From IMG/VR virus record IMGVR_UViG_3300043399_000877, positions 310,001-374,000 of that record: 64,000 nucleotides of DNA; one strand, written 5' to 3'. Source of the DNA: a virus. The notes under the pieces were generated by a model. That model saw nothing but the letters and a program-made list of their open reading frames with translations. It was not told the DNA's origin and searched no databases. This document shows positions 40,739 to 53,243 of the stretch, piece by piece (positions within the stretch are counted from its first letter, which is position 1; every line of letters begins with the position of its first letter). Both the position numbers and the translations under genes were made by a program.

Positions 40739-40767
40739 TGTCTAGTGTCAGCGTGACGGGAAGTCAA
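40739..40767 (-). promoter_or_regulatory. Sigma70-type promoter (TTGACT, 17 nt, TAGACA)
   Basis: Lies partly in the end of the gene at 40748 and reads to the gene starting at 40709. Confidence 0.5.
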
Positions 40768-41050
40768 CAGGTTTTTTGACGGCGGCGCGGCGTTCTTCCA
40801 TAGTCATGGGTTCTCTGGGTTCTTCAGTCCAGTGACCGCCCCAGCGTCTCCGCTGATTTTCTTCGTATGTCAACTCTTTGCTAAGATATTCGCCACTCCA
40901 ACTGTCAATTACGTCAGCCATTTCGTACAGTGCTGCAATCACACTGTTTTGATCTCCCCAACCGTATTCCATATAAGAGTTAGAATTGCGAGCATTGAGG
41001 AACGCTGCACGTTCTCTCATAGCGTCTGCTAGGCTTTTCGGGTCTTTCAT
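40748..41050 (-). CDS. Hypothetical protein, last gene of the short-protein array
   Basis: 100 aa from ATG 41050 (ATGA overlap), rather than the ATG 18 nt upstream. Helical: KSLADAMRERAAFLNARNSN and VIAALYEMADVIDSW. It does not have the LRW ending but is coupled to that array. Confidence 0.55.
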   Translation of the reverse strand: MKDPKSLADAMRERAAFLNARNSNSYMEYGWGDQNSVIAALYEMADVIDSWSGEYLSKELTYEENQRRRWGGHWTEEPREPMTMEERRAAVKKPVDFPSR

Positions 41051-41385
41051 TGGGTTGCACTGCTCCATTTTAAGCTAAAGAATGTTGCATCTCGTTCGTC
41101 TTTAAAATACCAACAGTTACTATAAATTCGATACTCGTCTTTAATAAATTGTCTGCACCATTCATCGCTTATTTTTGCTTTAGTATGCTGTATTACTTCG
41201 GTCCAACCTTGAGATTTTAGTGTAGCCTTTTCGACTTCTCTTAAGACTTCTCGATCAAGTTCTTCTTGTAATATTTTGGCAAGATTGTCGTTTATTTCTG
41301 TGTAAAGATCATCTGCCTTCTCGACGGTCCAAGTTGCTTTCAGAGTTCTGCTTTTTGCTAGTACAACTGTTTTTTCTATTTTCAT
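41047..41385 (-). CDS. Array protein ending FKDERDATFFSLKW
   Basis: 112 aa. GAGGTGGAGTGA precedes the ATG. C-terminus CWYFKDERDATFFSLKWSSATQ is the array signature, with a short extension that reads into the next gene. Upper part is charged (KADDLYTEINDNLAKILQEE). The codons for SLKWS are TTAAAATGGAGC, a weak form of the ribosome site. Confidence 0.65.
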   Translation of the reverse strand: MKIEKTVVLAKSRTLKATWTVEKADDLYTEINDNLAKILQEELDREVLREVEKATLKSQGWTEVIQHTKAKISDEWCRQFIKDEYRIYSNCWYFKDERDATFFSLKWSSATQ

Positions 41386-41398
41386 TCACTCCACCTCA

Positions 41399-41602
41399 TC
41401 ACTCCCCCGTATACTTTAACATCATTAGCAACATTTCTGACTCACTCTGCACTCGCCTAATATCCGGATATTTTTCAAAGAATCCTTCGCTCGCCTGACC
41501 GGGTTTACAATGCCATACTTTGCTAGCAGTCCAGTCAAATTCTGCCCAATATCCAGTGTCGGGATCAGACAACCGCATCTTGTTTATACGAGTGATTTTC
41601 AT
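41399..41602 (-). CDS. Array protein (short, degenerate ending)
   Basis: 67 aa. TAATG overlap with the gene before. MRLSDPDTGYWAEFDWTASK then a helical end SESEMLLMMLKYTGE; the ERD...LRW part is shortened. A free GAGGTGG lies just after its stop, before the next ATG. Confidence 0.55.
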   Translation of the reverse strand: MKITRINKMRLSDPDTGYWAEFDWTASKVWHCKPGQASEGFFEKYPDIRRVQSESEMLLMMLKYTGE

Positions 41603-41829
41603 TAACCGAACCTTAAAATAAACATGATAGCGTCCCGCTCATTTTCAAAAAGAAAATACCCCACACTGCCTTCAGCGAAGTCAACTTCATATACAAAAGT
41701 TGCACCGAACTTTTGTTTAATATAATCACGAAAAATGCTATCCGATTCGGGATTTTCTTTAAGATAGCGATTTAAGTTTTGATTTTCTTGAACATCTGCA
41801 AAGTATCGCCCGCTCGTTACTTTTATCAT
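41602..41829 (-). CDS. Array protein ending FENERDAIMFILRFG
   Basis: 75 aa from ATG 41829 (ATGA overlap). Ends FLFENERDAIMFILRFG; the LRF codons TTAAGGTTC hold AAGG for the next start. Upper part NLNRYLKENPESDSIFRDYI is helical. Confidence 0.65.
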   Translation of the reverse strand: MIKVTSGRYFADVQENQNLNRYLKENPESDSIFRDYIKQKFGATFVYEVDFAEGSVGYFLFENERDAIMFILRFG

Positions 41830-42257
41830 GACCACCTCAACAAAAACAAAATATAGTCTCGTTCGTCTTTAAAAGCAAAGAACAATTCGTCACTGCCACC
41901 GATTCCGTTGGGAAGGTATTGTCCTTCGTGGTCCATTATTACACGTTCCCAATGCCAACGGAATTTACCTCGGCAATTTTGATTGCACCAATTGGCAATA
42001 CGTTCACCATTCCAGTATTCACCCCACATAGCATCAAAATTCCAATCAAGATTGCGATACGGTACATGTGCAATATACGGATATCCAAATAACTGGTCTT
42101 TGACAGTATCGCCACGCTCGTTAAAATCAGGATCATATCTCCTAAAATAACGTTCCCAGGTCTGGCAACCGCTCCGTTCGAGCGCGCGGTCCCAACTGCG
42201 TTCAAGTAACAGATATTTTATCCATAAAAATGGGTTGCGGGGTCTTATATCTTTCAT
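41826..42257 (-). CDS. Array protein ending FKDERDYILFLLRWS
   Basis: 143 aa from ATG 42257 (ATGA overlap), so the longer frame is not used. MKDIRPRNPFLWIKYLLLER start, many W residues (YWNGERIANWCNQNCRGKFRW with two Cys). TTGAGGTGGTCATGA closes the frame and gives GAGGTGG to the next gene. Confidence 0.65.
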   Translation of the reverse strand: MKDIRPRNPFLWIKYLLLERSWDRALERSGCQTWERYFRRYDPDFNERGDTVKDQLFGYPYIAHVPYRNLDWNFDAMWGEYWNGERIANWCNQNCRGKFRWHWERVIMDHEGQYLPNGIGGSDELFFAFKDERDYILFLLRWS

Positions 42258-42640
42258 GTTTGGGGCCATCGTAGACTGAACAACAGTGCATCGCGTTCGT
42301 ATGCAAACCAAAAGTCATTCATGCTGCGAATATATGTGCCCGGTTTAAACGTTTTCCGACACCATTCTTTTGCTTCAATTACATCGCTGTAACGGATTCG
42401 GAATTTTTCGTATCCCAGAGACGTAATATAATCCGGATGATGAGCAATACGGCGATTGTAAATTTTTAAGAAATGACCAAAATGCGACTTCGTTAGAACA
42501 ACCCTTCCGCTGTAACCGGTTTTGCTGGTAAGAATATCTATAATCGGACCAGTCATGGGTTGAACGCCCAAGATATCTTGTGCAATTATGGTTGGCATCA
42601 CCCTGCGTATAATAGGTATTAAAACTTTTGCGTCTGACAT
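42254..42640 (-). CDS. Array protein ending YERDALLFSLRW
   Basis: 128 aa. MSDAKVLIPIIRRVMPTIIA start overlaps the zinc-type gene by 22 nt. Ends DFWFAYERDALLFSLRWPQT. Contains GRVVLTKSHFGHFLKIYNRR and HPDYITSLGYEKFRIRYSDV. Family member of unknown function. Confidence 0.65.
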   Translation of the reverse strand: MSDAKVLIPIIRRVMPTIIAQDILGVQPMTGPIIDILTSKTGYSGRVVLTKSHFGHFLKIYNRRIAHHPDYITSLGYEKFRIRYSDVIEAKEWCRKTFKPGTYIRSMNDFWFAYERDALLFSLRWPQT

Positions 42641-42861
42641 TCCGTTGCCCGCTTTTGTCCACCGCGCCGAAAGTCCCAGCCTTGGCCTCCCATTGCTTCA
42701 AGACTTTTCCACATTTCAGCGATCTCAACGCATTGCCGTGGCTGTCCGATGCTGCCTACCATTGCAAAACAACTGGTACAGCGATAACCCATTTCACTGG
42801 GGATATCGAATTCAGCTGTGCTTCCACAGGGTAAAAATATTTGAGTTGGTGTTGGTATCAT
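42619..42861 (-). CDS. Zinc-type Cys protein within the array
   Basis: 80 aa. PCGSTAEF, RCTSCFAM and RQCVEI supply four cysteines for one zinc site; lacks the LRW ending. Starts 4 nt after the previous stop. Confidence 0.55.
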   Translation of the reverse strand: MIPTPTQIFLPCGSTAEFDIPSEMGYRCTSCFAMVGSIGQPRQCVEIAEMWKSLEAMGGQGWDFRRGGQKRATECQTQKF

Positions 42862-42865
42862 GTCG

Positions 42866-43105
42866 TTAACCGTGTTTGAGAATGAATATTGTTAAGTAGC
42901 GTTCATCGCCACTAAACTTGAGGTAGCGTCGTTTATTTTTTTGCACAACAGTAAATCCCTGAGTCCAGAGCCAGTCTTCAAATCTTTGATTTTTGGTAGT
43001 GTTGGGATATTGATATTTTTGTGGCCAACGTGTATCGGCCAAACTGTCTCCGTACTTCCACTTTTGATAAACTCGATCTAAAAAATCAGGATCTAGTATT
43101 GTCAT
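42866..43105 (-). CDS. Array protein ending FSGDERYLTIFILKHG
   Basis: 79 aa from ATG 43105, preceded by GGGTGTCCGA. Ends RRYLKFSGDERYLTIFILKHG. Upper part has FLDRVYQKWKYGDSLADTRW. The long frame to 43204 is set aside because it would overlap its neighbour by 120 nt. Confidence 0.6.
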   Translation of the reverse strand: MTILDPDFLDRVYQKWKYGDSLADTRWPQKYQYPNTTKNQRFEDWLWTQGFTVVQKNKRRYLKFSGDERYLTIFILKHG

Positions 43106-43283
43106 TCGGACACCCAAGCAAAAACAGAGTATGGTACCGTTCTTCACTAAATTGCACATAGTAGTCATTGTATATGAACCCAGTGCATGTAATTTTAAAA
43201 GCACTAGGGTCCAAATTTTTTCTTATCCAGGCAACCCGCGCGCGAACAGTTGGATCGTCTTCATCACCCAAGCAGATTTTCAT
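43086..43283 (-). CDS. Array protein with FSEERYHTLFLLG ending
   Basis: 65 aa from ATG 43283 (ATGA overlap, GAGGTGG upstream). YYVQFSEERYHTLFLLGCPN: the LRW becomes LGC, encoded CTTGGGTGT, and still gives GGGTG as ribosome site. Then the frame reads about 20 nt into the next gene. Confidence 0.6.
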   Translation of the reverse strand: MKICLGDEDDPTVRARVAWIRKNLDPSAFKITCTGFIYNDYYVQFSEERYHTLFLLGCPNDNTRS

Positions 43284-43537
43284 GACCACCTCAGCATAAA
43301 AAGCGTAACATACTTTTCATCGGGGAACTCCAAATCAACATACCTGACTGTTTTGACTATAGTATGATTTTGTACGTGAAGTGTTTTACACTTATAAGTT
43401 TCTTCAAGATACCGATATACGGATTTAGTGCCGTTGAGCCCACCGTTTTTTATTAAAACGTGAACAGACTCGTTAACAGCACGTTTCCAAGAACGGTAAA
43501 TAGGGCTATTGGCCCGTAAACCATGATATTGTATCAT
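43280..43537 (-). CDS. Array protein ending FPDEKYVTLFMLRWS
   Basis: 85 aa from ATG 43537 (ATGA overlap, GAGGTGGGG upstream). Ends VDLEFPDEKYVTLFMLRWS, codons CTGAGGTGGTCATGA, giving the next ribosome site. Upper part RSWKRAVNESVHVLIKNGG. Confidence 0.65.
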   Translation of the reverse strand: MIQYHGLRANSPIYRSWKRAVNESVHVLIKNGGLNGTKSVYRYLEETYKCKTLHVQNHTIVKTVRYVDLEFPDEKYVTLFMLRWS

Positions 43538-43719
43538 CCCCACCTCAATCGCACCAGTGTTAGTTTTTTTGGATCATATACCTGAATTCCCTGAGTCTTC
43601 ATTCTAATTTTGATCCAATCATAGTCTTTACCGGCCTGGCCAACACTACATGACAACCAGTCGCACACTTCTTGGTAGTTTGACGCATCTATGTTAAAGA
43701 AAACACAGTTGTCTTCCAT
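43534..43719 (-). CDS. Array protein ending LVRLRWG
   Basis: 61 aa from ATG 43719, 8 nt after GAGGTGG. GIQVYDPKKLTLVRLRWG is the same ending as its neighbour at 43722, and the upper halves (VCDWLSCSVGQAGKDYDWIK and LLSWIDQNMGKKDVDYQLIF) are alike, so these two are paralogues. Confidence 0.65.
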   Translation of the reverse strand: MEDNCVFFNIDASNYQEVCDWLSCSVGQAGKDYDWIKIRMKTQGIQVYDPKKLTLVRLRWG

Positions 43720-43721
43720 AG

Positions 43722-43925
43722 TTAGCCCCACCTCAGCATAAACAACGTGCGTTTGTGATCGTCAAATATTTTTATACCAGCACACTGGTAATCAATAAAA
43801 ATCAGTTGGTAGTCGACATCTTTTTTGCCCATGTTTTGATCAATCCAAGACAGTAAGCCATGATAATAACCGGCCCGTCGCCGTTCAAACATTATAATGT
43901 CGTCTGTTATACTCTCAGATTTCAT
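43722..43925 (-). CDS. Array protein ending LFMLRWG
   Basis: 67 aa. ATG overlaps the end of the cREC gene by 11 nt. Ends GIKIFDDHKRTLFMLRWG with codons CTGAGGTGGGGCTAA. First member of the tandem array in direction of transcription. Confidence 0.65.
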   Translation of the reverse strand: MKSESITDDIIMFERRRAGYYHGLLSWIDQNMGKKDVDYQLIFIDYQCAGIKIFDDHKRTLFMLRWG

Positions 43926-44331
43926 AATCCAAGTCGCCAGTGTCGCTCATGTTGTCACGACGGCCGCGCTGGCCGTCGTACTCTAGATGGCGGATATAAT
44001 TACGCAAATATCTTTCGATATTTTCACGGCCCACGGGATTCATGCTATGAACATAGAAATCAAAATCTGCAGGAATTTCGAGGTTCCCGTCCATATGCTG
44101 GTCCACAATCCACTGAGCAATATTGAAGCCAGTGGGCTCGTTGTTGCCGAGGTCGTGATCGAAAGAAATGAAGTTCGGAGCAATTAATCCATGATTGATT
44201 ATGGCTTGAATTGCTTGATCTCGATTGCGCACAACTGTCCACTGCTGCTCACGATAACGCTCTTGCATACGGCGAGGGGCCCAAGTAACGTCCTGCAAAT
44301 TGCGCTCGTCATCAATAAAAAGATTCCACAT
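43915..44331 (-). CDS. Cyclic-phosphate processing receiver (cREC) domain protein
   Basis: 138 aa. LFIDDERNLQD gives the receiver-type acidic pair, FISFDHDLG follows, and YVHSMNPVGRENIERYLRNY ends the domain. This order is that of the cREC family, which has been predicted from comparative work to process cyclic phosphates at RNA ends and is often found with RNA repair enzymes. Own promoter right upstream. Heads the short-protein array. Confidence 0.85.
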   Translation of the reverse strand: MWNLFIDDERNLQDVTWAPRRMQERYREQQWTVVRNRDQAIQAIINHGLIAPNFISFDHDLGNNEPTGFNIAQWIVDQHMDGNLEIPADFDFYVHSMNPVGRENIERYLRNYIRHLEYDGQRGRRDNMSDTGDLDYEI

Positions 44332-44391: not shown

Positions 44392-44475
44392 TGGTGCCGC
44401 CGGGGAGACTCGAACTCCCACGACCGAAGTCACAAGCACCTCAAGCTTGCGTGGCTACCATTACACCACGGCGGC
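44392..44475 (-). tRNA. tRNA-Leu(GAG)
   Basis: Acceptor GCCGCCG with CGGCGGC, anticodon arm CAAGC-TTGAGGT-GCTTG (anticodon GAG), long variable arm with TGACTTCGGTCG, T-loop TTCGAGT, CCA encoded. Normal class II leucine tRNA. Confidence 0.9.
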
Positions 44476-44492
44476 AATTGTCCTTAATATAA

Positions 44493-44660
44493 TCATTTAA
44501 GTTTTTGTATGGCATCTTCTATTTGTTTCAACGCAAAAGTAGTAAGGAGATACTCACTTCTTTTGTCACATTTGTCGCTTAAGAAAAGTTCTAAGTTACA
44601 AATAGCAGATTTAATATCACCCTCTATTGTACCTTTTGTGTTAATACAGAACAATCCCAT
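44493..44660 (-). CDS. Hypothetical short protein
   Basis: 55 aa from ATG 44660 with GAGGAAGTTAC upstream; the longer frame would run into the tRNA. IKSAICNLELFLSDKCDKRS, then a helical end. Unknown. Confidence 0.55.
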   Translation of the reverse strand: MGLFCINTKGTIEGDIKSAICNLELFLSDKCDKRSEYLLTTFALKQIEDAIQKLK

Positions 44661-44675
44661 GTAACTTCCTCTAAA

Positions 44676-44752
44676 TGGTACCCCCGGCAGGACTCTAACC
44701 CACAACCCTCGCGTTCGAAGCGCGATGCTCTATACAATTGAGCTACGGAGGC
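44676..44752 (-). tRNA. tRNA-Arg(TCG)
   Basis: Anticodon arm TCGCG-CTTCGAA-CGCGA. Acceptor GCCTCCG with CGGGGGT (two wobble pairs). T-loop TTAGAGT departs from the usual TTCRANY by a T-to-A change (C56 replaced). CCA encoded. Confidence 0.85.
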
Positions 44753-44757
44753 AAAAA

Positions 44758-45006
44758 TTATCTAAGTCGAGGATTCTGGACAAACCGTCCACCGGCACCG
44801 CGAACTTTAGGACGAACTATCTTGTTCGCCTTCATCTGAGTGGCTGCGATATCACATCCGTCATTGAAACTGGGACTGGAACTGTCACATGGATCCAGTT
44901 TATTACGACTACGAGCGTAGCGATATCCAGCGGCATGACCACTGCAATCTTTGGTGCAGGGTCTGCCCTGGAAAGTTAGTTCGGTTATGATATCACGTAA
45001 CAACAT
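44758..45006 (-). CDS. Phage protein with CTKDCSGH motif; leaderless-type start
   Basis: 82 aa. MLLRDIITELTFQG start, then GRPCTKDCSGHAAGYRYARS, and a segment SSPSFNDGCDIAATQM, then RGAGGRFVQNPRLR. The CTKDCSGHxAGY motif occurs, as I recall, in many phage proteins of unknown role. Start directly after a late box. N-terminus resembles the short MRLR-type peptides of 50586 and 55121. Confidence 0.7.
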   Translation of the reverse strand: MLLRDIITELTFQGRPCTKDCSGHAAGYRYARSRNKLDPCDSSSPSFNDGCDIAATQMKANKIVRPKVRGAGGRFVQNPRLR

Positions 45007-45010
45007 ACAG

Positions 45011-45018
45011 TATTTATG
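45011..45018 (-). promoter_or_regulatory. Late promoter box CATAAATA + CTGT + ATG
   Basis: CATAAATACTGTATG; the ATG is the start at 45006. Same spacing as at 27850 and 50586. Confidence 0.65.
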
Positions 45019-45021
45019 CCA

Positions 45022-45366
45022 TTACAGCAGTTTTAGATCCCCGGTTATGGGTTGCAGACGCTCGTGCGTGTCTGGGCCCACAGCAATGCAGGTGTTGGTG
45101 GGCGTGCCGTTAAACACAGTCAAGCCTGCGTCCGTGACAAGCTCAGCGATGAGCCCTGCCGCACGGGCGCGATTGTATACGTCCAGCAACTCTTCCTCGC
45201 TGCTGACACCCACTGCAATCTTGGTAAACTTACCTTCTAGCCATTCTTTGACTCTCGGGTCAGCAAAGTTCACAAGAGTGGCTTTCATGCTTGCATGTGC
45301 GCCCTGCGCGATCTCTTTACCACGCGGCATCTTGAGATCTTTTCTCATTACAATAATCTGTTTCAT
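45022..45366 (-). CDS. Peptidyl-tRNA hydrolase, PTH2 family
   Basis: 114 aa from ATG 45366, with AAGGATACTGCT upstream. KQIIVMRKDLKMPRGKEIAQ, GAHASMKA, FTKIAVGVSSEEELLDVYNR, LVTDAGLTVF and TCIAVGPDTHERLQPITG give the full PTH2 pattern, including the catalytic Lys-His region KxxxGKxAAQxxHA. Releases peptides from peptidyl-tRNA, or removes modified tRNA ends. Together with 59626 the phage has two. Confidence 0.93.
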   Translation of the reverse strand: MKQIIVMRKDLKMPRGKEIAQGAHASMKATLVNFADPRVKEWLEGKFTKIAVGVSSEEELLDVYNRARAAGLIAELVTDAGLTVFNGTPTNTCIAVGPDTHERLQPITGDLKLL

Positions 45367-45376
45367 AGCAGTATCC

Positions 45377-46348
45377 TTAGTCGTCAACAGTTACTTCGGT
45401 CTTTGTCTTTTTGGTCTTGATCAGGGAGTAGATGACTCCGGCAGCCAAGATAGCAAAGGTTATAGCCAGTGATATCTCCGGTGGAAATTTTGCCAAGCCA
45501 AGAAGATCGGCTATAAAGATTTTGCTTCCTATAAACACTAGAAGTATAGCCAGTGCTGTTTTTAGGTATTCAAATCTGTGCAGTACCGCCGCAAGAGCAA
45601 AGTACAAGGCTCGCAATCCGAGTATTGCAAAAATATTGCTGGTATAGACAATGAACGGATCTGTTGTAATAGCAAAAACAGCAGGCACACTATCGACTGC
45701 AAAAATCAAATCTGCAAGTTCAACAAGAACCAGTGCAAGGAACAGCGGAGTCACAAACCATTTGCCGGCATGTTTTACGAAGAAACTGTTGCCGTGTAGT
45801 CGTTCGGTTACGTTGAATTTTGCCCTCATGAACTTTAGGGCAGGATTGTTTTCCAAGTCTGTTTCGGACTCTTTTACAAACAACATCTTGACGCCGGTAA
45901 AGATCAAGAACGCAGCAAAAATGTAAAGTATCCAACCAAACTGGCTAACAAGCGTTGCACCCAGCCCAATCATAATACCACGAAGGACGATAACGCCCAA
46001 AATACCCCAGAAAAGAACGCGGTGTTGATATTCTTTTGGAATAGAGAAGAAGCTGAAAATAAGAGCTATAACAAAGATGTTATCGAGCGCCAGTGTTTTC
46101 TCTACAACAAAAGCAGTTAGGTATTCAAATGACTGAACTGCACCGATCTGATACCAGACAAAACCGGAAAATGCCAGTCCTATTGCGATATAAACCGCTG
46201 AAAGTCTTAGACTTTCAGCAACACCGATTTCATGAGAATCTCGATGCAAAACACCTAGGTCAAAAACCAGCAGTGCAAGGACGATTGCCAAAAACAGCAA
46301 CCACATCCACACCGGAGTGCCTAGAAAGAGAAGTGTTAAAAATTCCAA
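45377..46348 (-). CDS. TerC family membrane protein (Alx-like)
   Basis: 323 aa, about nine TM helices. Conserved VEKTLALDNIFVIALIFSFF, ADLIFAVDSVPAVFAIT and SNIFAILGLRALYF, with the acidic residues of the two internal repeats. Bacterial TerC/Alx proteins export manganese or respond to pH and tellurite. TTG start 8 nt after GGGG, the only possible one. The 12-nt overlap with PTH2 suggests co-expression. A phage copy may adjust metal balance of the infected cell. Confidence 0.93.
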   Translation of the reverse strand: MEFLTLLFLGTPVWMWLLFLAIVLALLVFDLGVLHRDSHEIGVAESLRLSAVYIAIGLAFSGFVWYQIGAVQSFEYLTAFVVEKTLALDNIFVIALIFSFFSIPKEYQHRVLFWGILGVIVLRGIMIGLGATLVSQFGWILYIFAAFLIFTGVKMLFVKESETDLENNPALKFMRAKFNVTERLHGNSFFVKHAGKWFVTPLFLALVLVELADLIFAVDSVPAVFAITTDPFIVYTSNIFAILGLRALYFALAAVLHRFEYLKTALAILLVFIGSKIFIADLLGLAKFPPEISLAITFAILAAGVIYSLIKTKKTKTEVTVDD

Positions 46349-46374
46349 TTATTTTCCCCTGTATGAGTCGTTAT

Positions 46375-46590
46375 TTACTGGTCAGTTCGCCATCTTTTGC
46401 GACAATCTGGACAGAAAAAATCTATCCAATAACTGTCAGCACTAGGGTCATAATTACCGGTGTTGCTGTCATATTTTTTAGTCACACCGGGATGAGTGCA
46501 TAATGCCTGCAACTTCGCAAGTTCATGGGCTAAACGTTCTTCTCTGCGATCGATACTAGCCCATTTACGCCTAACCTGCGCTGGCGTCAT
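46375..46590 (-). CDS. Small zinc-type protein
   Basis: 71 aa. Basic helical N-terminus (RRKWASIDRREERLAHELAK), ALCTHPGV and FFCPDCRKRW for a zinc site with C-H-C-C. Starts in ATGA overlap with 46587. Confidence 0.6.
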   Translation of the reverse strand: MTPAQVRRKWASIDRREERLAHELAKLQALCTHPGVTKKYDSNTGNYDPSADSYWIDFFCPDCRKRWRTDQ

Positions 46591-47015
46591 GATGCAGCCT
46601 CCTTTTCAATATATCGTGAACACTTTGCACGATCCGTCATGTTGCGTTCGGCTAGGTCTTCCCAAAATTTTTCATTTGGTTTTACCACGCTGTACGCGAG
46701 TTGGCCCCCAAAATAGACCAAACACTCTCTGTTGTAGTTGCTGCTGAGAACCACAGTATATGCCGTGCTCACAGCAGCGCCTCCGATGCCCCCGTGCCCG
46801 AGTGCTGTGCTGCCCCAGGTTTGTGGGAACATTCCGATTACGGAAAAATCACGAGTGGTGTGACGACGTGTTTTCTTAACGGTGGCGTTCTTATCACCAC
46901 TTCGGCGGAATTCTTCCCAATCACGAGAGTCGTACTCAATCTCGGAAAATCCCGCGTACTCAGCATGTGCCAAAACTGCGGCAAGTTCTCCGATTGGATT
47001 ATCAGTGTAGGTCAT
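46587..47015 (-). CDS. Conserved phage protein of unknown function
   Basis: 142 aa. GMFPQTWGSTALGHGGIGG, then STAYTVVLSSNYNRECLVYF is a pattern I recognise from large phages without a known role. C-terminal helical part. Overlaps its neighbours at both ends. Confidence 0.65.
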   Translation of the reverse strand: MTYTDNPIGELAAVLAHAEYAGFSEIEYDSRDWEEFRRSGDKNATVKKTRRHTTRDFSVIGMFPQTWGSTALGHGGIGGAAVSTAYTVVLSSNYNRECLVYFGGQLAYSVVKPNEKFWEDLAERNMTDRAKCSRYIEKEAAS

Positions 47016-47364
47016 CGTAAGGTTCTCCTCGAGTGCGCAACACTCTCCATGTGTATTCTTTTTCTACTCGTTCTGCGTAACGTTTGCGCATCCCATCCGG
47101 ATCAGTCATCCAGTATTTCATACCTTCCGGGTGTCCATAGCTGTGCGCTGGCGCATTGAAATTGAGCCAACGAACAATATCCGGAAGTCGCTGGATGTTA
47201 ATATGATCAGCACTGGTGATTGCCCCGTAAAGGTTGTTGCACAACACATTTGTCAAAAAACCTCCGGGCGGTAATCCGTAAACCAGATAGTTATCTAGAG
47301 ATTTTCTAGTGTGTTCCGGAATTTCTCGTCCATAGCTGTCACTATCAAAATCAATCATGCACAT
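47002..47364 (-). CDS. Conserved phage protein of unknown function
   Basis: 120 aa from ATG 47364 (ATG 47358 is the alternative), overlapping the SLOG gene by 14 nt. EHTRKSLDNYLVYGLPPGGF and LCNNLYGAITSADHINIQRL, then FNAPAHSYGHPEGMKYWM, are conserved in other phages in my memory. Helical. Confidence 0.65.
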   Translation of the reverse strand: MCMIDFDSDSYGREIPEHTRKSLDNYLVYGLPPGGFLTNVLCNNLYGAITSADHINIQRLPDIVRWLNFNAPAHSYGHPEGMKYWMTDPDGMRKRYAERVEKEYTWRVLRTRGEPYDDLH

Positions 47365-47764
47365 TTGTTGTCCCATTCGGAAAAAATACCATGGTTGGCT
47401 TGCCGGTTTTCTTCGCATAGTCGTGCGTATACCAAGTGCCGCCGTTGTTCTGCCACGAATTTTGATATGGCACAACTAACAGCACATCACACTCATTGAC
47501 TATCTGTCTATTTCTTGCGAAATAACTGAGTGGTTCTCGAAAATCGTCTGATCGGTGGTGCGCCCTAAGTTCTGTTTTAATCGGTGGATGACAGACCACC
47601 TTAATACCCATTTCCGCAGCCAATATAGCAACCTGTTCATCTACTCCCACACAGTCTCCGTGATGCAATTCTGTGATGCCGTTTCGACTGGTTAGATAGT
47701 TTCTAACCAGTCGAAACTGTTCATCATTCATTCCGGAACGGGTACCAGTTACGCCAACTTTCAT
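47351..47764 (-). CDS. SLOG-superfamily nucleotide-binding protein
   Basis: 137 aa from ATG 47764 (TAATG overlap). VGVTGTRSGMN, HHGDCVGVDEQVAILA, RNRQIVNECDVLLVVPYQN and GGTWYTHDYAKKTGKP follow the Rossmann-like SLOG fold (DprA/LOG relatives), with the GxTGxR and GGT loops. Such proteins bind or cleave nucleotide derivatives, some linked to ADP-ribose signalling. Neighbouring HAD phosphatase suggests nucleotide or RNA end work. Confidence 0.85.
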   Translation of the reverse strand: MKVGVTGTRSGMNDEQFRLVRNYLTSRNGITELHHGDCVGVDEQVAILAAEMGIKVVCHPPIKTELRAHHRSDDFREPLSYFARNRQIVNECDVLLVVPYQNSWQNNGGTWYTHDYAKKTGKPTMVFFPNGTTNVHD

Positions 47765-48279
47765 TATCTCTCGTTCCATTGTCCAACAATGCTCATAGCA
47801 TGTTTCATATGCTTGTAAAGCAATCCGTTTTCTGGATCAGTTCGTACTAGGCGTTTTTTGCCCAGCACTTCGTCAAATCGATAAGCGTTGTCATCAAACA
47901 AGATGAAGTCACGCACGTCAGTTCCGTAGTTAGCAAGGTACTCTTGAACCTCGTGTGCGCGGTCATTAAGACCTGCACGTTGCCAGATAACGTTATCCGG
48001 ATCAGTTTTCCACGGGCTTGCAAGTTTTCCACGGAAGCCGCTGTTGCCGAAGGCAGCAGAGACCCAGTGCAGCACCATATTGTCATCGTTACGGAGATAA
48101 TTTTTCCAGGTTGACATAAGAACAAACTCAACCGGGTAACGGTCGTGAAGTTTGTTCATGAAATCAACAGCAACCGGGTCAAAGCGATGCCACATTTCAT
48201 AAGTGGCGTTATGTGCATAATGCACACGGCTGCTGGTAAAGACGCCGTCGATGTCTAAAAAAACTAGATATCTGCTCAT
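47764..48279 (-). CDS. HAD phosphatase of the RNA-repair type
   Basis: 171 aa. FLDIDGVFTSSR carries DxDG with the nucleophile Asp, FVLMSTWKNYL has the motif II Ser/Thr, and FILFDDNAYRF has the late DD. RLVRTDPENGLLYKHMKHA is the closing pattern of the HAD domain described in multi-domain RNA repair proteins. Likely removes 3' phosphates. Own sigma70-type promoter. Confidence 0.85.
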   Translation of the reverse strand: MSRYLVFLDIDGVFTSSRVHYAHNATYEMWHRFDPVAVDFMNKLHDRYPVEFVLMSTWKNYLRNDDNMVLHWVSAAFGNSGFRGKLASPWKTDPDNVIWQRAGLNDRAHEVQEYLANYGTDVRDFILFDDNAYRFDEVLGKKRLVRTDPENGLLYKHMKHAMSIVGQWNER

Positions 48280-48302
48280 AGCACCACACCTTTCTTAGAG
48301 TT

Positions 48303-48331
48303 AATATAGTGTAGATATATCTGTGTGTCAA
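48303..48331 (-). promoter_or_regulatory. Sigma70-type promoter (TTGACA, 17 nt, TATATT)
   Basis: Near-consensus, upstream of the HAD-SLOG group at 48279. Confidence 0.75.
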
Positions 48332-48345
48332 GTAAGATTACGATC

Positions 48346-48900
48346 TTACCAGACACTCCAGATGTGTTTTTTACCGAGATAGGTGTCGGGATAGGGAAGA
48401 TAATCCCAGTCTTGATCTTTGAGGACACGACGTTCAAGCTGACGAACAGCGTTGCGAACAGTCTCTTTGCTGAGAGTTTTGTAAGCAGTGTTGCAGCCAG
48501 TTTCGTTGCCGTATCCGTCTCGAGTACGTTTTGCAAATTCGCGACGAGCCCAGTCACGTTCTGCTTCCCAATCAATGTCACAAGGTTCGTAACGGAACTT
48601 GCTAACATAATAACGATAACGTTCGGGCAATGCACGAACATAGCAACTGTACATAATGCTTTCGGGATTGTTCCAACAAAACCAATAGTTTTTGCGGACT
48701 ACCCGGCAGTCAGCTTCGTAACGTGCTTCTGCTGCTGCAACTTCGTGTTGGTATTCTTCCTGAGTTTTCTTCACTTTTTTACGGTGATACATGCCAGGAT
48801 ATCTGGCGGCGCGAAGCGCCAGATCTTTTATATGCTCATCCACGTATTGAGATTCCGATTTGGAATGATCAAACTTGGGTTTACGGTACGTTCTACTCAT
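48346..48900 (-). CDS. Hypothetical basic protein
   Basis: 184 aa, strongly charged (KPKFDHSKSESQYVDEHIKD, YPGMYHRKKVKKTQEEYQHE). Two or three cysteines. W and Y rich. AAGGAGTCAAA before the ATG. Upstream, between 48901 and 48972, only a 10-codon open frame and no clear promoter is seen. Confidence 0.6.
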   Translation of the reverse strand: MSRTYRKPKFDHSKSESQYVDEHIKDLALRAARYPGMYHRKKVKKTQEEYQHEVAAAEARYEADCRVVRKNYWFCWNNPESIMYSCYVRALPERYRYYVSKFRYEPCDIDWEAERDWARREFAKRTRDGYGNETGCNTAYKTLSKETVRNAVRQLERRVLKDQDWDYLPYPDTYLGKKHIWSVW

Positions 48901-48972
48901 TTTGACTCCTTATAAGCTATTAGCTCATAAGTCGTCGTAAAACTTTCTGTATCTCATTTCGTTTCCTTTATT

Positions 48973-49077
48973 TGGTGGAGAGGGATGGAATCGAACCATC
49001 GACGCGGCAAGTTACCAGCCTGCCCGCTCTACCCAGACCAACTTCAAGATTGGTGATCTTGCTGAGCTACCGTCTCC
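48973..49077 (-). tRNA. tRNA-Thr(GGT) with hairpin inserted in the D-loop
   Basis: 105 nt including encoded CCA, about 28 nt longer than usual. Anticodon arm GCAGG-CTGGTAA-CTTGC, T-arm GATGG-TTCGATT-CCATC, acceptor GGAGACG with CCTCTCC (one C-C mismatch). Between GCTCAG and GTAGAGC, the D-loop has extra sequence with CAAGAT-CACCA-ATCTTG, a perfect 6-bp hairpin. Confidence 0.8.
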
Positions 49078-49084
49078 GTTATTT

Positions 49085-49160
49085 TGGCGCCCCCGGCAGG
49101 AGTCGAACCCACAACCTAGGGAGTAGAAATCCCTTGCTCTTCCAGTTGAGCTACGAAGGC
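49085..49160 (-). tRNA. tRNA-Arg(TCT)
   Basis: Anticodon arm AGGGA-TTTCTAC-TCCCT. Acceptor GCCTTCG with CGGGGGC; G73; CCA encoded. T-loop TTCGACT. Confidence 0.88.
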
Positions 49161-49393
49161 ATGTCATTTAGTAATTCATTTAGAACTGCGTCAACCAGTT
49201 CTTCTACGAACTCATCTTCTTCACTTGCGAGTACAAAATCGTCTGCACTCATAGTACCAACCACCCATGCATCCCAGTGCCGTGTGCAAAACATTGCATC
49301 AGACAAAGATTCTCTAACGCGGTCTCGGAGTCGCCGTTTTAACGGCTCCGACACAGTTGCAATCAGGGCACGTCGGTCAAGTGCAGTGGTCAC
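49151..49393 (-). CDS. Hypothetical protein ending inside a tRNA gene
   Basis: 80 aa. GTG start overlaps the macro gene stop (GTGA). Acidic helical end (FVLASEEDEFVEELVDAVLN). Its last codons MPS and the stop TAG are formed by the first 10 bases of tRNA-Arg(TCT). Confidence 0.6.
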   Translation of the reverse strand: MTTALDRRALIATVSEPLKRRLRDRVRESLSDAMFCTRHWDAWVVGTMSADDFVLASEEDEFVEELVDAVLNELLNDMPS

Positions 49394-49833
49394 AACACGT
49401 AAACCACTGGTTCAACGTCAGTCATTTCATCTTCGATGATCTGACTGATAATGTTCCAATTCCCGCCGCCGAGCCCAGCACCGATTTGCGGCATAGCAAC
49501 CTGCGTTTCACCACTTTGACGAAGAACGCTGTTGATGGTGCGCATACAATCAGCCACTGCTTCGTAGTTCACAAAACGACTACCGTCTCGACCATACAAA
49601 TGCTGAGTAATTGCGTTGATGATTACTTTGCCATTTGAAGGTACAAACTGTACATCACCCAGCTTGAGGCCATGCTCGTCGTACTGCTCAACATAAAACC
49701 GGTATGCGTCAAAGTGGTCGTCACGAACTATACGTGCAACACCTGAACCCATAACGCCCTGGGCATTGCAACCGTGTGCAATGTGCAGGATGTCGGTCTC
49801 GAAAAGATTGCCCTTGCGGTATTGGATTTTCAT
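49390..49833 (-). CDS. Macro-domain ADP-ribose binding/hydrolysing protein
   Basis: 147 aa. HGCNAQGVMGSGVA and MPQIGAGLGGGNW are the two loops that hold ADP-ribose. The NxxxxMGxGVA form and short length fit the ALC1/TARG1-like or ADP-ribose-phosphate group, which removes ADP-ribose from protein or processes its 1''-phosphate, a by-product of tRNA splicing or repair. In context with an ADP-ribosylglycohydrolase at 54156. Confidence 0.93.
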   Translation of the reverse strand: MKIQYRKGNLFETDILHIAHGCNAQGVMGSGVARIVRDDHFDAYRFYVEQYDEHGLKLGDVQFVPSNGKVIINAITQHLYGRDGSRFVNYEAVADCMRTINSVLRQSGETQVAMPQIGAGLGGGNWNIISQIIEDEMTDVEPVVYVL

Positions 49834-49836
49834 CTT

Positions 49837-49950
49837 TTACTTCCGGAAAAGATTGGTAACTTTTGCTTGCAGGTCTTTTGCCCATTGCGGCTGAGGAAGG
49901 TTCCAACCAATACCCAGTCCGATAGCGATTCCAACTGCTAGTGTAAACAT
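49837..49950 (-). CDS. Very small membrane protein
   Basis: 37 aa, too short for most gene finders. FTLAVGIAIGLGIGWNLP is one TM helix with GxxxG-like spacing; the tail WAKDLQAKVTNLFRK is amphipathic. AAAGGAGACACAG before the ATG and a strong sigma70-type promoter right upstream make it likely real. Similar tiny proteins occur in other phages, as I remember. Confidence 0.75.
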   Translation of the reverse strand: MFTLAVGIAIGLGIGWNLPQPQWAKDLQAKVTNLFRK

Positions 49951-49972
49951 CTGTGTCTCCTTTGTTAACTGT

Positions 49973-50001
49973 AATATAGTGCCGGGTGTTGCTGTTGTCA
50001 A
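49973..50001 (-). promoter_or_regulatory. Sigma70-type promoter (TTGACA, 17 nt, TATATT)
   Basis: Upstream of the 37-aa gene and the macro gene. Near-consensus. Confidence 0.75.
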
Positions 50002-50013
50002 GCAACAATACGA

Positions 50014-50586
50014 TTAATCGTCTATTGCCAATGGATCTGTGATAACTGGAACCGATCCACGAAACATAAGATTTGATATTCCGAAATCTAAATCATATTG
50101 CCCGTGTTGTTTTAATTTTTCCAATACTGCCATGATTTCTGGATAAGACCTTGATATATCAGCAACTACTCGTTGATACTGGTCACGATCTCTTCCATCA
50201 TTTGAGAGTATGTAATCGATCATATTGAACACATTACGATTATCTGTGCTGCGCGGATCAAAACTATCAAGCCGTTCCATTCTCACTACGCGAAAGTTGT
50301 TGGGAAGTTTTATAATATTTCCACGAAGTTTTGGAACATGAGGGTTCCCGCGTAGCTGCATAATGTACTGTAAATACTGATCATAACCGGCGTCGTTTTT
50401 ATAAATTTTAACAACGTAATCGGCGCCCGGTTTAGCCAACACATGGGCATATAATCCGCTCCCCAAAGATTCAAACTCAAATCCACGCTGCTGTAGTTGT
50501 TTGACGTAATCTTCTACGCCCAAGACCTCTTGGGCAGAAGCATACGCTGGGTTTTTTCTGTATCCGGTTAATTCACGTAATCGCAT
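50014..50586 (-). CDS. Kinase-fold protein with MRLR-type N-terminus
   Basis: 190 aa from ATG 50586. LGSGLYAHVL (glycine loop at 41-44), VVKIYKN with Lys60, YDLDFGISNLMFRG (D167 and N172, catalytic-loop-like) and VITDPL (D184, metal-binding like DFG) trace a minimal protein-kinase-like fold. Length is short for a full kinase, so activity is uncertain. First residues MRLRELTGYR resemble those of 55121. Directly after a late box, thus a late gene and possibly packaged. Confidence 0.75.
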   Translation of the reverse strand: MRLRELTGYRKNPAYASAQEVLGVEDYVKQLQQRGFEFESLGSGLYAHVLAKPGADYVVKIYKNDAGYDQYLQYIMQLRGNPHVPKLRGNIIKLPNNFRVVRMERLDSFDPRSTDNRNVFNMIDYILSNDGRDRDQYQRVVADISRSYPEIMAVLEKLKQHGQYDLDFGISNLMFRGSVPVITDPLAIDD

Positions 50587-50590
50587 ACAG

Positions 50591-50598
50591 TATTTATA
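50591..50598 (-). promoter_or_regulatory. Late promoter box TATAAATA + CTGT + ATG
   Basis: TATAAATACTGTATG, with full T4 consensus and the ATG at 50586. It sits 3 nt after the 3' end of tRNA-Arg(ACG). Confidence 0.75.
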
Positions 50599-50600
50599 TT

Positions 50601-50678
50601 TGGTACTCCCGAGAGGATTCGAACCCCTGACCTTCGCGTTCGTAGCGCGACGCTCTAATTCCACTGAGCTACGGGAGT
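50601..50678 (-). tRNA. tRNA-Arg(ACG)
   Basis: Anticodon arm TCGCG-CTACGAA-CGCGA, acceptor ACTCCCG with CGGGAGT, CCA encoded. A34 would need host TadA to become inosine. Confidence 0.9.
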
Positions 50679-50679
50679 A

Positions 50680-51162
50680 TTAATTTATCGATCGATTATC
50701 GGCAAATTGAATAGTTTTTCCAACATAGTTGGCTTCGGCACCGGTCATCATAGCGCGACCGGAGGATTCCAGATCCCAAACAAAATCTGCCATAAATTCT
50801 TGAATGTCTCCGGTCACCTTTTTTAGTTTGTTGACCACCGCTGCGTTTATTGGTCTTACAGCTTCCAATTCTTGCTGGACTTCTGGTGGCAGGTTTCCCG
50901 TCACCGGTACCCATTGTGGTGGATTGGCGTTTCCGAGTTCTGAATGTATTTTGCCCATAACACCGGTTTGGGGGTCATACTCGGTACCCTTGGTTGACTC
51001 ATCTTCAACAGCATTTGCAAGCATCATGAATGTTCTTGCAACGTCCGGTGCAGCTTTAATCAACCAAACATCACCGTCTGCAAATTCATCTATATAACCT
51101 ATGAGAACAGTATTTGCACTTTCATTAATACTGTCTAATTTATTCAGTAATGATCTAAACAC
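50680..51162 (-). CDS. Hypothetical acidic protein
   Basis: 160 aa from GTG 51162, chosen because AAAGGAG lies 5-6 nt upstream; the longer frame enters a tRNA. SLLNKLDSINESANTVLIGY start, FADGDVWLIKAAPDVARTFM, then VQQELEAVRPINAAVVNKLK. An ATAAATA box lies further upstream. A possible virion-internal protein, unproven. Confidence 0.6.
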   Translation of the reverse strand: MFRSLLNKLDSINESANTVLIGYIDEFADGDVWLIKAAPDVARTFMMLANAVEDESTKGTEYDPQTGVMGKIHSELGNANPPQWVPVTGNLPPEVQQELEAVRPINAAVVNKLKKVTGDIQEFMADFVWDLESSGRAMMTGAEANYVGKTIQFADNRSIN

Positions 51163-51197
51163 AGCGACTCCTTTTTTATTATTTATGTGAAAGTCTC

Positions 51198-51272
51198 TGG
51201 TGCAGCCTGGAGGATTTGAACCTCCGACATCTGTCGAGTCAGGACAGCGCTCTACCACTGAGCTAAGGCTGC
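51198..51272 (-). tRNA. tRNA-Val(GAC)
   Basis: Anticodon arm CTGTC-CTGACTC-GACAG, acceptor GCAGCCT with AGGCTGC, CCA encoded. Confidence 0.92.
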
Positions 51273-51273
51273 A

Positions 51274-51351
51274 TGGAACTGGCTGGGGGATTTGAACCCG
51301 CCGCTACAAGATCCACAATCTTGTGTGCTAAACCGCTAACACTAAACCAGC
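51274..51351 (-). tRNA. tRNA-His(GTG)
   Basis: Anticodon arm CAAGA-TTGTGGA-TCTTG. Acceptor GCTGGTT with AGCCAGT. The base before position 1 is T rather than the G-1 that bacterial HisRS needs, and base 73 is T, not C; G-1 would have to come from elsewhere. CCA encoded. One base from tRNA-Val. Confidence 0.85.
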
Positions 51352-51355
51352 ATTA

Positions 51356-51547
51356 TTAGATTACAATGAACTTGTGATCAGTCAATTCTTCTCTAAGAAC
51401 AAAGTCCTCGTCGAGTTTTACAACTTGCCCTTCTAAAACTCGTTCAATAAGTTTCTTGCTCTCTGCAAGGCTCATTCCAGTGTGCTGTCTCACAGACAGT
51501 ATAGCACTATATGAATTTGCGCCTTTTTTAAAACCTATGATTTGCAT
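51356..51547 (-). CDS. Short L7/L12 C-terminal-like protein
   Basis: 63 aa. IGFKKGANSYSAILSVRQHT and GMSLAESKKLIERVLEGQVV follow the L7/L12 C-terminal domain pattern (VRxxTGLxLxEAKxLV). Small phage and bacterial proteins of this type exist; function unknown. Lies between tRNA genes. Confidence 0.7.
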   Translation of the reverse strand: MQIIGFKKGANSYSAILSVRQHTGMSLAESKKLIERVLEGQVVKLDEDFVLREELTDHKFIVI

Positions 51548-51563
51548 ACCGATACTCCTCTAT

Positions 51564-51634
51564 TGGTGCCCCCTGTAGGAATCGAACCTACCGATCCGGG
51601 CTTAGGACGCCTGAGCCGGCCCAGCGGAGAGGGC
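51564..51634 (-). tRNA. tRNA-Arg(CCT) with minimal D-arm
   Basis: 71 nt including CCA. Acceptor GCCCTCT with AGGGGGC, T-arm GTAGG-TTCGATT-CCTAC, anticodon loop GTCCTAA in a stem with one A-C mismatch. The D-arm can only be GCTG-GGC-CGGC, a 3-nt loop, against 7-11 nt normally. Confidence 0.75.
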
Positions 51635-51640
51635 TAAATT

Positions 51641-51718
51641 TGGCGGATAAGGTTGGACTCGAACCAACAACGCAAGGCCTCAACCTGGCACCCGCTCTAC
51701 CTCTTGAGCTACCGATCC
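51641..51718 (-). tRNA. tRNA-like gene, anticodon uncertain (GAG read as best guess)
   Basis: Acceptor GGATCGG with CTTATCC (one mismatch), D-arm GCTC-AAGAGGTA-GAGC, T-arm GTTGG-TTCGAGT-CCAAC, CCA encoded. The anticodon arm cannot be fitted to 5+7+5: CCAGG-TTGAGGC-CTTGC has a C-C mismatch and leaves 5 nt before it; GCCAG/CTTGC would give an 8-nt loop. GAG would be leucine but the variable arm is short. Confidence 0.55.
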
Positions 51719-51902
51719 GCATAATATTTTGTCAGCGAACTACAAGCTGGTGGACTCGAACGCACCATCGCCGGCTGTACGCCGGTGTCCTATCCTTTAG
51801 ACGAAACTTCAATCTTATCAGCACTTTTCCGCACCCCGGCGTGGGTTGGGAAGTTACTGGCAACAAAGGTTCGCTGACATGGACGATCGCCGCGCCCTAA
51901 CT
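51719..51902 (-). other. Structured spacer with degenerate tRNA between inverted repeats
   Basis: No credible CDS. Minus-strand TCGTCTAAAGGATAGGAC looks like a D-arm of glutamate type, CCGG-CGTACAG-CCGG like an anticodon arm lacking U33, and GGTGCG-TTCGAGT-CCACC like a T-arm with one extra base, but acceptor pairing is poor and CCA is absent. A perfect 11-bp inverted repeat (TGTCAGCGAAC, 51730-51740 and 51869-51879) encloses it. Either a decayed tRNA or an unknown structured RNA. Confidence 0.6.
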
Positions 51903-51979
51903 TGGTTGTCCCTCTCGGAGTCGAACCGAGGACCCCAGTCTTATCAGGACTGTGCTCTAACCACCTGAGCTAAGGGACA
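51903..51979 (-). tRNA. tRNA-Ile(GAT)
   Basis: Anticodon arm CAGTC-CTGATAA-GACTG, acceptor TGTCCCT with AGGGACA, CCA encoded. Confidence 0.92.
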
Positions 51980-51987
51980 GAAATTTT

Positions 51988-52064
51988 TGGTGTGCCGGGT
52001 GAGATTTGAACCCACGACCTTGGAGTTAAGAGCTCCCTGCTCTAGACCACTGAGCTACCGGCGC
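51988..52064 (-). tRNA. tRNA-Lys(CTT)
   Basis: Anticodon arm GGGAG-CTCTTAA-CTCCA (outer pair mismatched), acceptor GCGCCGG with CCGGCAC (C2-A71 mismatch), CCA encoded. Confidence 0.82.
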
Positions 52065-52370
52065 ATTATTTGGAAGATACGCTCGCTCTCCCAGCCAGGG
52101 CACTTTCGCTCCCCAACAAAAGCACAAGCGTATCATCGAAATAATGGTGAACCGGGTAGGATTTGAACCTACGTTGGCATTGCTGCTACAGATTAAAAGT
52201 CTGTCCCCATCGGCCTCTCGGGCACCGGTCCTAATGAATTCTGTGAAGTTTTGCTTTTCACGTTTGCGTTTCGATTTATATGGTTTATCGTGTGCGCCCG
52301 CAACTCGAAACCGTGCTGCGGCCACAAACGGATTCCTCTGTTTAGGAATCTTCTGACGTTTTCGTTTCAT
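52026..52370 (-). CDS. Small basic phage protein whose frame reads through a tRNA gene
   Basis: Up to 114 aa. The first 45 residues (KQRNPFVAAARFRVAGAHDK, PYKSKRKREKQNF) are a basic pattern I recognise from many phages, where the protein ends at about this length. Here the frame has no stop and continues through the tRNA at 52145-52231 and a hairpin, to stop in tRNA-Lys. So either the protein has a junk tail or a tRNA insertion removed its stop. It overlaps the gene at 52342 by 29 nt. Confidence 0.5.
   Translation of the reverse strand: MKRKRQKIPKQRNPFVAAARFRVAGAHDKPYKSKRKREKQNFTEFIRTGAREADGDRLLICSSNANVGSNPTRFTIISMIRLCFCWGAKVPWLGERAYLPNNAPVAQWSRAGSS
52071..52134 (-). other. Hairpin element with 8-bp outer stem and encoded CCA-like end
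   Basis: GATACGCT pairs with AGCGTATC (52127-52134 and 52076-52083), then TTCCA follows at the 3' side. Inside are CTTT/AAAG and other short stems but no T-loop TTCRA, so not a normal tRNA. It may be a tRNA remnant or processing signal. Confidence 0.5.
52145..52231 (-). tRNA. Class II tRNA of tyrosine type with UUU (Lys) anticodon
   Basis: 87 nt. Acceptor GGACCGG with CCGGTTC, G1-C72, A73, CCA encoded. D-arm with CCCGAGAGGCC as in bacterial tRNA-Tyr, anticodon arm ACAGA-CTTTTAA-TCTGT (anticodon TTT), 15-nt variable arm with GCA-GCAA-TGC, T-arm GTAGG-TTCAAAT-CCTAC. A lysine tRNA is normally class I. Isotype is therefore in doubt. Confidence 0.85.
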
Positions 52371-52512
52371 CTAAAAATCTTTCCTTGTATTTGCGTATAG
52401 CTGCTATCAGTGCCGCTGTGGGCGCGGGTGGTCGGTTACACGCTTCTACGATACGGTCATACTCTTCCTGAGTCAACAGTATCGTCTCGGTCTCCTGATC
52501 GGTCGTCTTCAT
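52342..52512 (-). CDS. Short protein, DUF1778/antitoxin-like segment
   Basis: 56 aa. ILLTQEEYDRIVEACNRPPA, then PTAALIAAIRKYKERF, resembles the C-terminal part of DUF1778-type antitoxins. No toxin gene is seen. AGGAAG lies 8 nt before the ATG. Confidence 0.6.
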   Translation of the reverse strand: MKTTDQETETILLTQEEYDRIVEACNRPPAPTAALIAAIRKYKERFLDETKTSEDS

Positions 52513-52645
52513 TTTTTCTACTTCCTGCTCGGTTCATTACTATAAGATATTCTGGATCAGTAACTCCAAAATCTCCGGGATTCTGTATAATCTGCTCCAT
52601 CTGCTGTTCTGACAGCAATGAAAAAAAACTGTTTGATCCAGTCAT
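52457..52645 (-). CDS. Hypothetical short protein
   Basis: 62 aa. SLLSEQQMEQIIQNPGDFGV, then TDPEYLIVMN. AGGAGTAAAAA before ATG supports it; its tail overlaps the next gene by 56 nt and is charged (KNEDDRSGDRDD). Confidence 0.55.
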   Translation of the reverse strand: MTGSNSFFSLLSEQQMEQIIQNPGDFGVTDPEYLIVMNRAGSRKNEDDRSGDRDDTVDSGRV

Positions 52646-52661
52646 TTTTTACTCCTGTTAA

Positions 52662-52737
52662 TGGTCCCCAGGGACGGGATCGAACCGCCGACACCATGCT
52701 CTTCAGGCACGTGCTCTACCAACTGAGCTACCTGGGG
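52662..52737 (-). tRNA. tRNA-Phe(GAA)
   Basis: Anticodon arm CGTGC-CTGAAGA-GCATG, acceptor CCCCAGG with CCTGGGG, CCA encoded. Confidence 0.9.
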
Positions 52738-52743
52738 ATTATT

Positions 52744-52829
52744 TGGTGGGTCGTCTAGGAATCGAACCTAGCATGGGAGTTAACCCGGCGGATTTACAAT
52801 CCGCTGCCACACCTTGTAGCATACGACCC
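52744..52829 (-). tRNA. tRNA-Tyr(GTA)
   Basis: Class II, anticodon arm GCGGA-TTGTAAA-TCCGC, variable arm CGGGTTAACTCCCATG, acceptor GGGTCGT with ACGACCC, A73, CCA encoded. A canonical tyrosine tRNA, useful for comparison with 52145. Confidence 0.92.
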
Positions 52830-53141: not shown

Positions 53142-53160
53142 TTTCAGTTCCTCTTGTGTT

Positions 53161-53238
53161 TGGTAGCCCCAACGGGGATCGAACCCGTTTCTCCAGATTG
53201 AAAGTCTAGTATCCTAACCTGCCGTAGACGATGGGGCC
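53161..53238 (-). tRNA. tRNA-Glu(TTC)
   Basis: Anticodon arm CTAGA-CTTTCAA-TCTGG, acceptor GGCCCCA with TGGGGCT, CCA encoded. D-arm of GTCT type as usual for Glu. Confidence 0.9.
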
Positions 53239-53243
53239 ATGTT

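Follow-up and report, generated by a model that had tools for sequence, protein, structure and literature searches.

A phage array of short proteins with one shared C-terminal domain, the next gene's ribosome site in its final codons, and pieces of phage core proteins in some members

Translationally coupled overlapping gene pairs, in which termination at ATGA or TGATG is followed by reinitiation, have been described (PMC6728339, PMC10666635). Here we analyse a row of short genes in a 64,000-nucleotide window, bases 310001-374000 of the 381,886-base IMG/VR virus record IMGVR_UViG_3300043399_000877, which derives from a T4-like jumbo phage with bacteria as the host type. Like such pairs, the row has stop/start overlaps and a ribosome site within the end of the upstream gene, which suggests coupling here; unlike them, its site is spelled by a single conserved C-terminal peptide that is found again at numerous junctions and across numerous phages. 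A second point of comparison is the T4 major capsid protein gp23 (PF07068), which contains the 29-residue Gol region, an EF-Tu-binding activator of Lit (PMC3014915). Members of the family described below include recognisable parts of gp23, here called pieces A, B and C, and piece A covers the Gol region; unlike gp23 itself, the pieces comprise only 25-60 residues, are fused to another domain and are encoded by short genes at a distance from the capsid operon.

The array also resembles phage counter-defence and host-takeover islands, with many small, variable, clustered genes beside enzymes that reverse nucleotide or ADP-ribose signals. In contrast to such islands, it has a single shared C-terminal domain, N-terminal parts that come from phage core proteins, and no match to a described anti-defence family in Pfam, PHROG and NCBIfam comparisons of members and relatives. 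Polymorphic toxin cassettes likewise combine one constant and one exchangeable end; however, the constant part of the array proteins is C-terminal and about 45 residues long, and neither a toxin domain nor a delivery part was found.

Ten short minus-strand genes within 41047-43925 have, or derive from, one common C-terminal ending, as a preliminary description made from the sequence alone had proposed, although the family proved larger than it had noted. On viral contigs, at least 120 stretches matched a back-translated pattern of the ending that allowed all six Arg codons. The 45 C-terminal residues of relatives from other phages were then made into a profile, which after four rounds of refinement identified 683 members at E < 0.05 across about 128 loci (the first set), and pooling all loci gave 1,049 distinct open reading frames (ORFs) with this "tail", grouped at 50% identity into about 400 clusters, with 2 to 42 members per contig. 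The same profile matched none of the reversed ORFs, which rules out a chance origin of the shared ending, a concern raised in the preliminary description. The tail comprises the C-terminal 40-50 residues and ends FxxE(R/K)DxxxFxLRW. Pfam and PHROG hold no family for it among the ten window members or 122 relatives, nor does NCBIfam among the relatives, and a search of the open-access literature found no earlier description. The array is thus one instance of a widespread, undescribed phage gene family.

AlphaFold2 predicts the tail of the protein encoded at 42254 as a β-α-β-β-α unit with a predicted local distance difference test score (pLDDT) of about 90-96, and gives the 41826 protein the same order of elements behind a helical front (mean pLDDT 88); the two models agree on a predicted mini-domain fold. 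Foldseek matches of this fold were confined to uncharacterised phage proteins, and solved structures gave no match at E < 0.001; those that matched weakly were mostly small α/β, ferredoxin-like domains. Single-sequence searches recovered almost no relatives among named phages; the profile search found weak tail-domain members in the cultured Agrobacterium phage Atu_ph07, one of which (at about 239833) adjoins a GroES-like gene. A second recurrent ending, (I/M)(V/M)DEKKYxxFLLKF, occurs in small proteins beside LRW (Leu-Arg-Trp) members at L054, L063, L084, L092, L121 and other loci, and may be a sister tail.

The ribosome site of the next gene is written in the LRW codons. GAGGTG stands just ahead of the next ATG at five window junctions (ATGs 43719, 43537, 43283, 41829 and 41385), the first of which follows the 43722 gene; these are about half of the window junctions, so that the placement is real but less general than the "usually" of the preliminary description. 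The 43534 gene overlaps the following gene by GAGGTGGGGATGA, the 43280 and 41826 genes have GAGGTGGTCATGA overlaps, and the 41602 gene has a TAATG junction. The window junctions thus include overlaps of -4 or -1 or very short gaps, as expected of translational coupling. Because an ATGA overlap imposes an NNA codon, the residue after the Trp varies among S, G, L, A and T. At the 41399/41385 junction GAGGTGG sits in a 13-nt gap (41385-41402) and the upstream frame has no LRW; the ribosome signal has therefore outlasted the peptide there.

Across the family, members ending in Arg-Trp were counted as coupled when the next ATG overlaps the stop or lies no more than 2 nt from it. The terminal Arg is encoded by AGG in 246/346 coupled members (71%) versus 22/70 uncoupled members (31%; Fisher 1e-9), and the difference persists with one member per cluster (126/163 versus 13/39, p = 4e-7). 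Internal Arg-Trp pairs use AGG in only 12/157 cases (8%), and all internal Arg in 197/2,430. This bias was not produced by the search, since the pattern accepted all six Arg codons, and it supports, statistically and across phages, the proposal that protein end and translation signal are conserved together. The final Trp is nevertheless retained in 84/93 uncoupled members, so the peptide end is not there owing to the ribosome site, and the notion that LRW is present solely for that site is ruled out; what varies instead is the synonymous Arg codon. The peptide is constrained for itself and the Arg codon for the next start: the codons bend to the ribosome, not the reverse.

The most unusual feature of the family, absent from the preliminary description, is the presence of pieces of gp23, of the ribonucleotide reductase NrdA and of Walker A stretches in the N-terminal parts. 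By sequence comparison, two window members bear different pieces of the major capsid protein. The phage's own T4-type gp23 gene lies at record positions 188965-189963 (PF07068, 7e-100), about 160 kb from the array. Piece A (KVLIPIIRRVMPTIIAQDILGVQPMTGPIIDILTSK; 42521..42628, minus strand) forms residues 5-44 of the 42254 protein, is equivalent to T4 gp23 residues about 92-128, and matches Pfam Gp23 at 2.6e-9 and the PHROG major head protein at 1.6e-8. Piece B, the N-terminal 50-75 residues of the 41047 protein, is equivalent by alignment to T4 gp23 about 252-310 (Pfam Gp23 1.1e-8; PHROG 2.5e-8). The gp23 profile is covered only at positions 6-44 and 136-219 of 376, and neither protein has the full HK97-fold capsid of about 400 residues; they carry pieces and are not capsid proteins. 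Compared with the capsid protein of the same phage, piece A matches residues 58-97 at 55% identity (over 40 aa, 3e-14), while its identity to capsid proteins of other phages reaches 62.5%; piece B is 39% identical to residues about 153-211 of the phage's own capsid protein (4e-7). Piece A aligns over the Gol region and appears equivalent in sequence to the Gol peptide.

A gp23 match was found in 21/80 related records, mostly as a short piece within an ORF of 76-171 aa, and almost every such ORF also has the tail. Pieces A and B occur together in 5/80 records versus 1.25 expected (p = 0.002), or in 4 after removal of one doubtful record (p = 0.012), and they also do so in the window. Between pieces, pS is 0.72-0.92 and pN 0.26-0.41: synonymous sites are saturated and nonsynonymous sites are not, so it is the peptide, rather than DNA identity, that selection has preserved. 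Together with the higher identity to capsid proteins of other phages, this saturation leaves the idea that the pieces are recent copies of the phage's own gene unsupported. gp23-like proteins also occur apart from the tail. In the rearranged L169 and L174 (G002:109647-110807), from a 266-kb phage with 42 tail-domain matches, the C-terminal region follows immediately on the spine-helix region, and L173 (G031:370118-370252), a separate 138-aa ORF, corresponds to the N-terminal third of gp23 in a 385-kb phage whose genome encodes a full gp23 as well.

Other N-terminal parts follow the same plan. NLCKEIxLPTKP matches NrdA residues 434-450, the catalytic NLCxE site, with E. coli-type NrdA as the best solved-structure matches. 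The source of the Walker A stretch is uncertain; a T7-like primase/helicase appears nearest, weakly (40% over 55 aa, 3e-3), and UvsX/RecA (1) and terminase (0.6) match more weakly still. When 54 loci of one tail type were fetched with a query free of the capsid piece, the fusion partners of that tail included piece A (18), Walker A stretches, NLCKEI and the capsid C-terminal motif YYAPYMP. Overall counts of pieces A and B carry a bias, as later loci were fetched through such genes; the NrdA and capsid C-terminal (MCP-C) motifs, neither of which was used to fetch loci, are strongly enriched over other ORFs. Several proteins, e.g. L227, line up two or three core-protein motifs. With 152 pairs of one tail with different N-parts and 4 pairs of one N-part with different tails, the data support a modular system of exchangeable N-parts on a shared tail, and the cassette-like organisation suggested in the preliminary description is borne out. 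A recurrent middle module, VYGARYYTxxP...WxxNNxKFWFR, was seen between tails and Walker A or gp23-B N-parts (L088, L116, L182, L184, L239).

Comparison with G034, a 39-kb contig with the same neighbourhood, gives a view of turnover. Identity is 92% for PTH2 and 94% for the 46375 gene, 34-64% for array genes and 53-63% for other neighbours. The counterpart of 41826 has moved to the front of the row in G034 and three array genes there have no window counterpart; from these differences and the identity ranges, the row has been reshuffled, at a rate only moderately above that of some neighbours. The "fast-evolving" label of the preliminary description is thus only weakly supported: array genes have diverged far from G034, but several neighbours are scarcely better conserved. 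The same description had considered that relatives might keep the gene order and lose the LRW ending; G034 retains both gp23-piece genes, LRW-type ends and much of the gene set, and the proposal survives.

We tentatively favour an explanation in which the array genes are coupled in translation and reshuffled, and supply decoys or antagonists directed against the host. Each gene encodes a small protein whose C-terminal 40-50 residues are predicted to form a β-α-β-β-α mini-domain ending in an F-x-L-R-W helix. Its stop overlaps or abuts the next ATG, with Leu-Arg-Trp codons chosen (xTG AGG TGG) so that they spell a GAGGTGG ribosome site, and the genes would be translated in succession, a gene with the tail end supplying the start signal to whatever comes next. 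N-terminal parts are swapped between members, a minority being conserved phage core peptides (three gp23 regions, the ribonucleotide reductase NLCxE and a DnaB/gp4-like Walker A), and the common domain would display these baits, which may occupy host factors or defence sensors that recognise conserved phage proteins, or otherwise disturb host functions. The domain, the codon coupling, the modularity, the motif pieces and the protein-level constraint are borne out by the results above, whereas we infer that the array proteins are expressed and that, through a binding partner, they would act as decoys. The setting, the number of members, their turnover and the pieces of host-sensed proteins together point to host interaction; capsid protein is sensed by hosts in the Gol/Lit system (PMC3014915), by CmdTAC with gp23 (PMC11618068), by CapRel (PMC9712102) and by Thoeris (PMC11312562). 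The more specific statement, that in T4-like phages rapidly shuffled mini-proteins show the phage's own most conserved peptides (capsid, ribonucleotide reductase, helicase) to divert host factors or innate sensors, their end codons serving as a portable ribosome site, is rather doubtful.

Several observations weigh against the decoy explanation. The first set is the least biased, and about 12 of its 683 members carry a gp23 piece; a recognisable core-protein piece is present in only about 2% of that set, so the decoy idea need not extend to the remaining members. The gp23 part of the 42254 protein is modelled with low confidence (pLDDT about 42-63), and small gp23 pieces are absent from the six cultured relatives examined. 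To our knowledge, no host sensor reads ribonucleotide reductase or this helicase motif.

Alternatively, the row may be a gene nursery, in which tail and ribosome site provide a handy end for captured frames and the core pieces were caught by chance recombination and are mostly neutral. The strong modularity, the turnover between relatives and the eroded members 43086, 42866 and 41399 are consistent with such a nursery; however, the pieces are the most conserved motifs and not random ones, they are constrained at the protein level at saturated synonymous divergence, and the NrdA and MCP-C motifs are enriched although they were not used to find loci. We consider it unlikely. In another reading the array interferes with phages or satellites that share the cell, its gp23 and NrdA pieces acting as dominant negatives in a rival's assembly or enzyme complexes. 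This would fit piece A being no closer to its own capsid protein than to those of others, and fits pieces A and B belonging to one capsid protein and tending to co-occur, but motifs this strongly conserved should also harm the phage itself, and the pieces, which are short, fold poorly in the AlphaFold2 model; the probability of interference is low. A similarly low probability applies to a partner role, in which the array proteins would bind the phage's own gp23, NrdA or helicase as small regulators or structural components and aid folding, assembly or control. The preservation of capsid-like sequence across large distances and the GroES-like neighbour in Atu_ph07 speak for such partners, but the genes lie far from capsid genes and beside accessory genes, most members have no piece, and contigs vary widely in member number. 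Walker A, NLC and similar conserved motifs are classic intein insertion sites, which lends some plausibility to a DNA-level function in which motif-coding DNA copies a homing-endonuclease or intein site and is kept as target or decoy, but the synonymous saturation shows that DNA identity is not conserved and largely refutes this highly improbable idea.

The row itself, all on the minus strand, begins with two paralogues that the preliminary description had correctly paired (34% identity, 2.6e-7): 43722..43925 (67 aa, ending LRWG, tail profile 4e-4) and 43534..43719 (61 aa, LRWG, 0.09). They are followed by 43280..43537 (85 aa, LRWS, 1e-6) and by two members with eroded tails, 43086..43283 (LLGC(PNDNTRS), 0.08; 42% identical to a G034 orthologue ending LLRFSK) and 42866..43105 (ILKHG), which the tail profile does not recognise by itself (E 10) and which is counted via its 55% identical G034 orthologue, ending FLLKWT. 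The piece A gene, 42254..42640 (128 aa, LRWPQT, 2e-7), precedes 41826..42257 (143 aa, LRWS, 4e-6), a widely conserved type with 13 homologues, and 41602..41829 (75 aa, LRFG, 2e-7). The 41399..41602 gene ends MLKYTGE; neither it nor its 39% identical G034 orthologue has an LRW end, and it belongs to the row by position and orthologue only. The piece B gene, 41047..41385 (112 aa, LKWSSATQ, 6e-10), closes the array; the next gene downstream, 40748..41050, has no tail domain (G034 counterpart 55%). By the tail profile, six window genes fall below 1e-3, two are near 0.1, one enters through its orthologue, and 41399 and 11202 fail; the latter, which the preliminary description had regarded as an outlying member, gave E 1.2 and ends SDEKYSTMLELM. 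AGGTGG does precede ATGA at the 58436/58242 junction, as had been noted, but 58436 lies outside the family. Genome-wide, the array holds eight profile-matched tails, and one further weak match is at 69979 (E 0.03). Promoter and terminator counts across the region did not exceed those of shuffles.

One small gene inside the row, 42619..42861 (minus strand), has no tail domain; its product has two Cys pairs, a possible zinc ribbon, and its counterpart (63%) stays within the array in G034. Directly upstream of the array lies a cREC_REC (cyclic-phosphate processing receiver domain) gene, 43915..44331 (minus strand; PF20274, 2e-23), and genes for a Macro domain protein (49390-49833) and an ADP-ribosylglycohydrolase (54156-55052) are near, with PTH2 in the same neighbourhood. 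Fifteen tRNA genes lie within 44392-53400, five of them with Arg or rare-codon anticodons (tcg, tct, acg, cct); the phage tRNA-Arg with anticodon CCT reads AGG, the codon of the LRW ends.

With protein conservation and translation start joined in one codon stretch, dual coding is clearly exemplified by this family. A large protein family of uncultured phages, so far unnamed, would gain a defining signature and a testable use: phages may counter capsid-sensing immunity, such as Lit, CmdTAC, CapRel and Thoeris, using peptides of the sensed protein itself.

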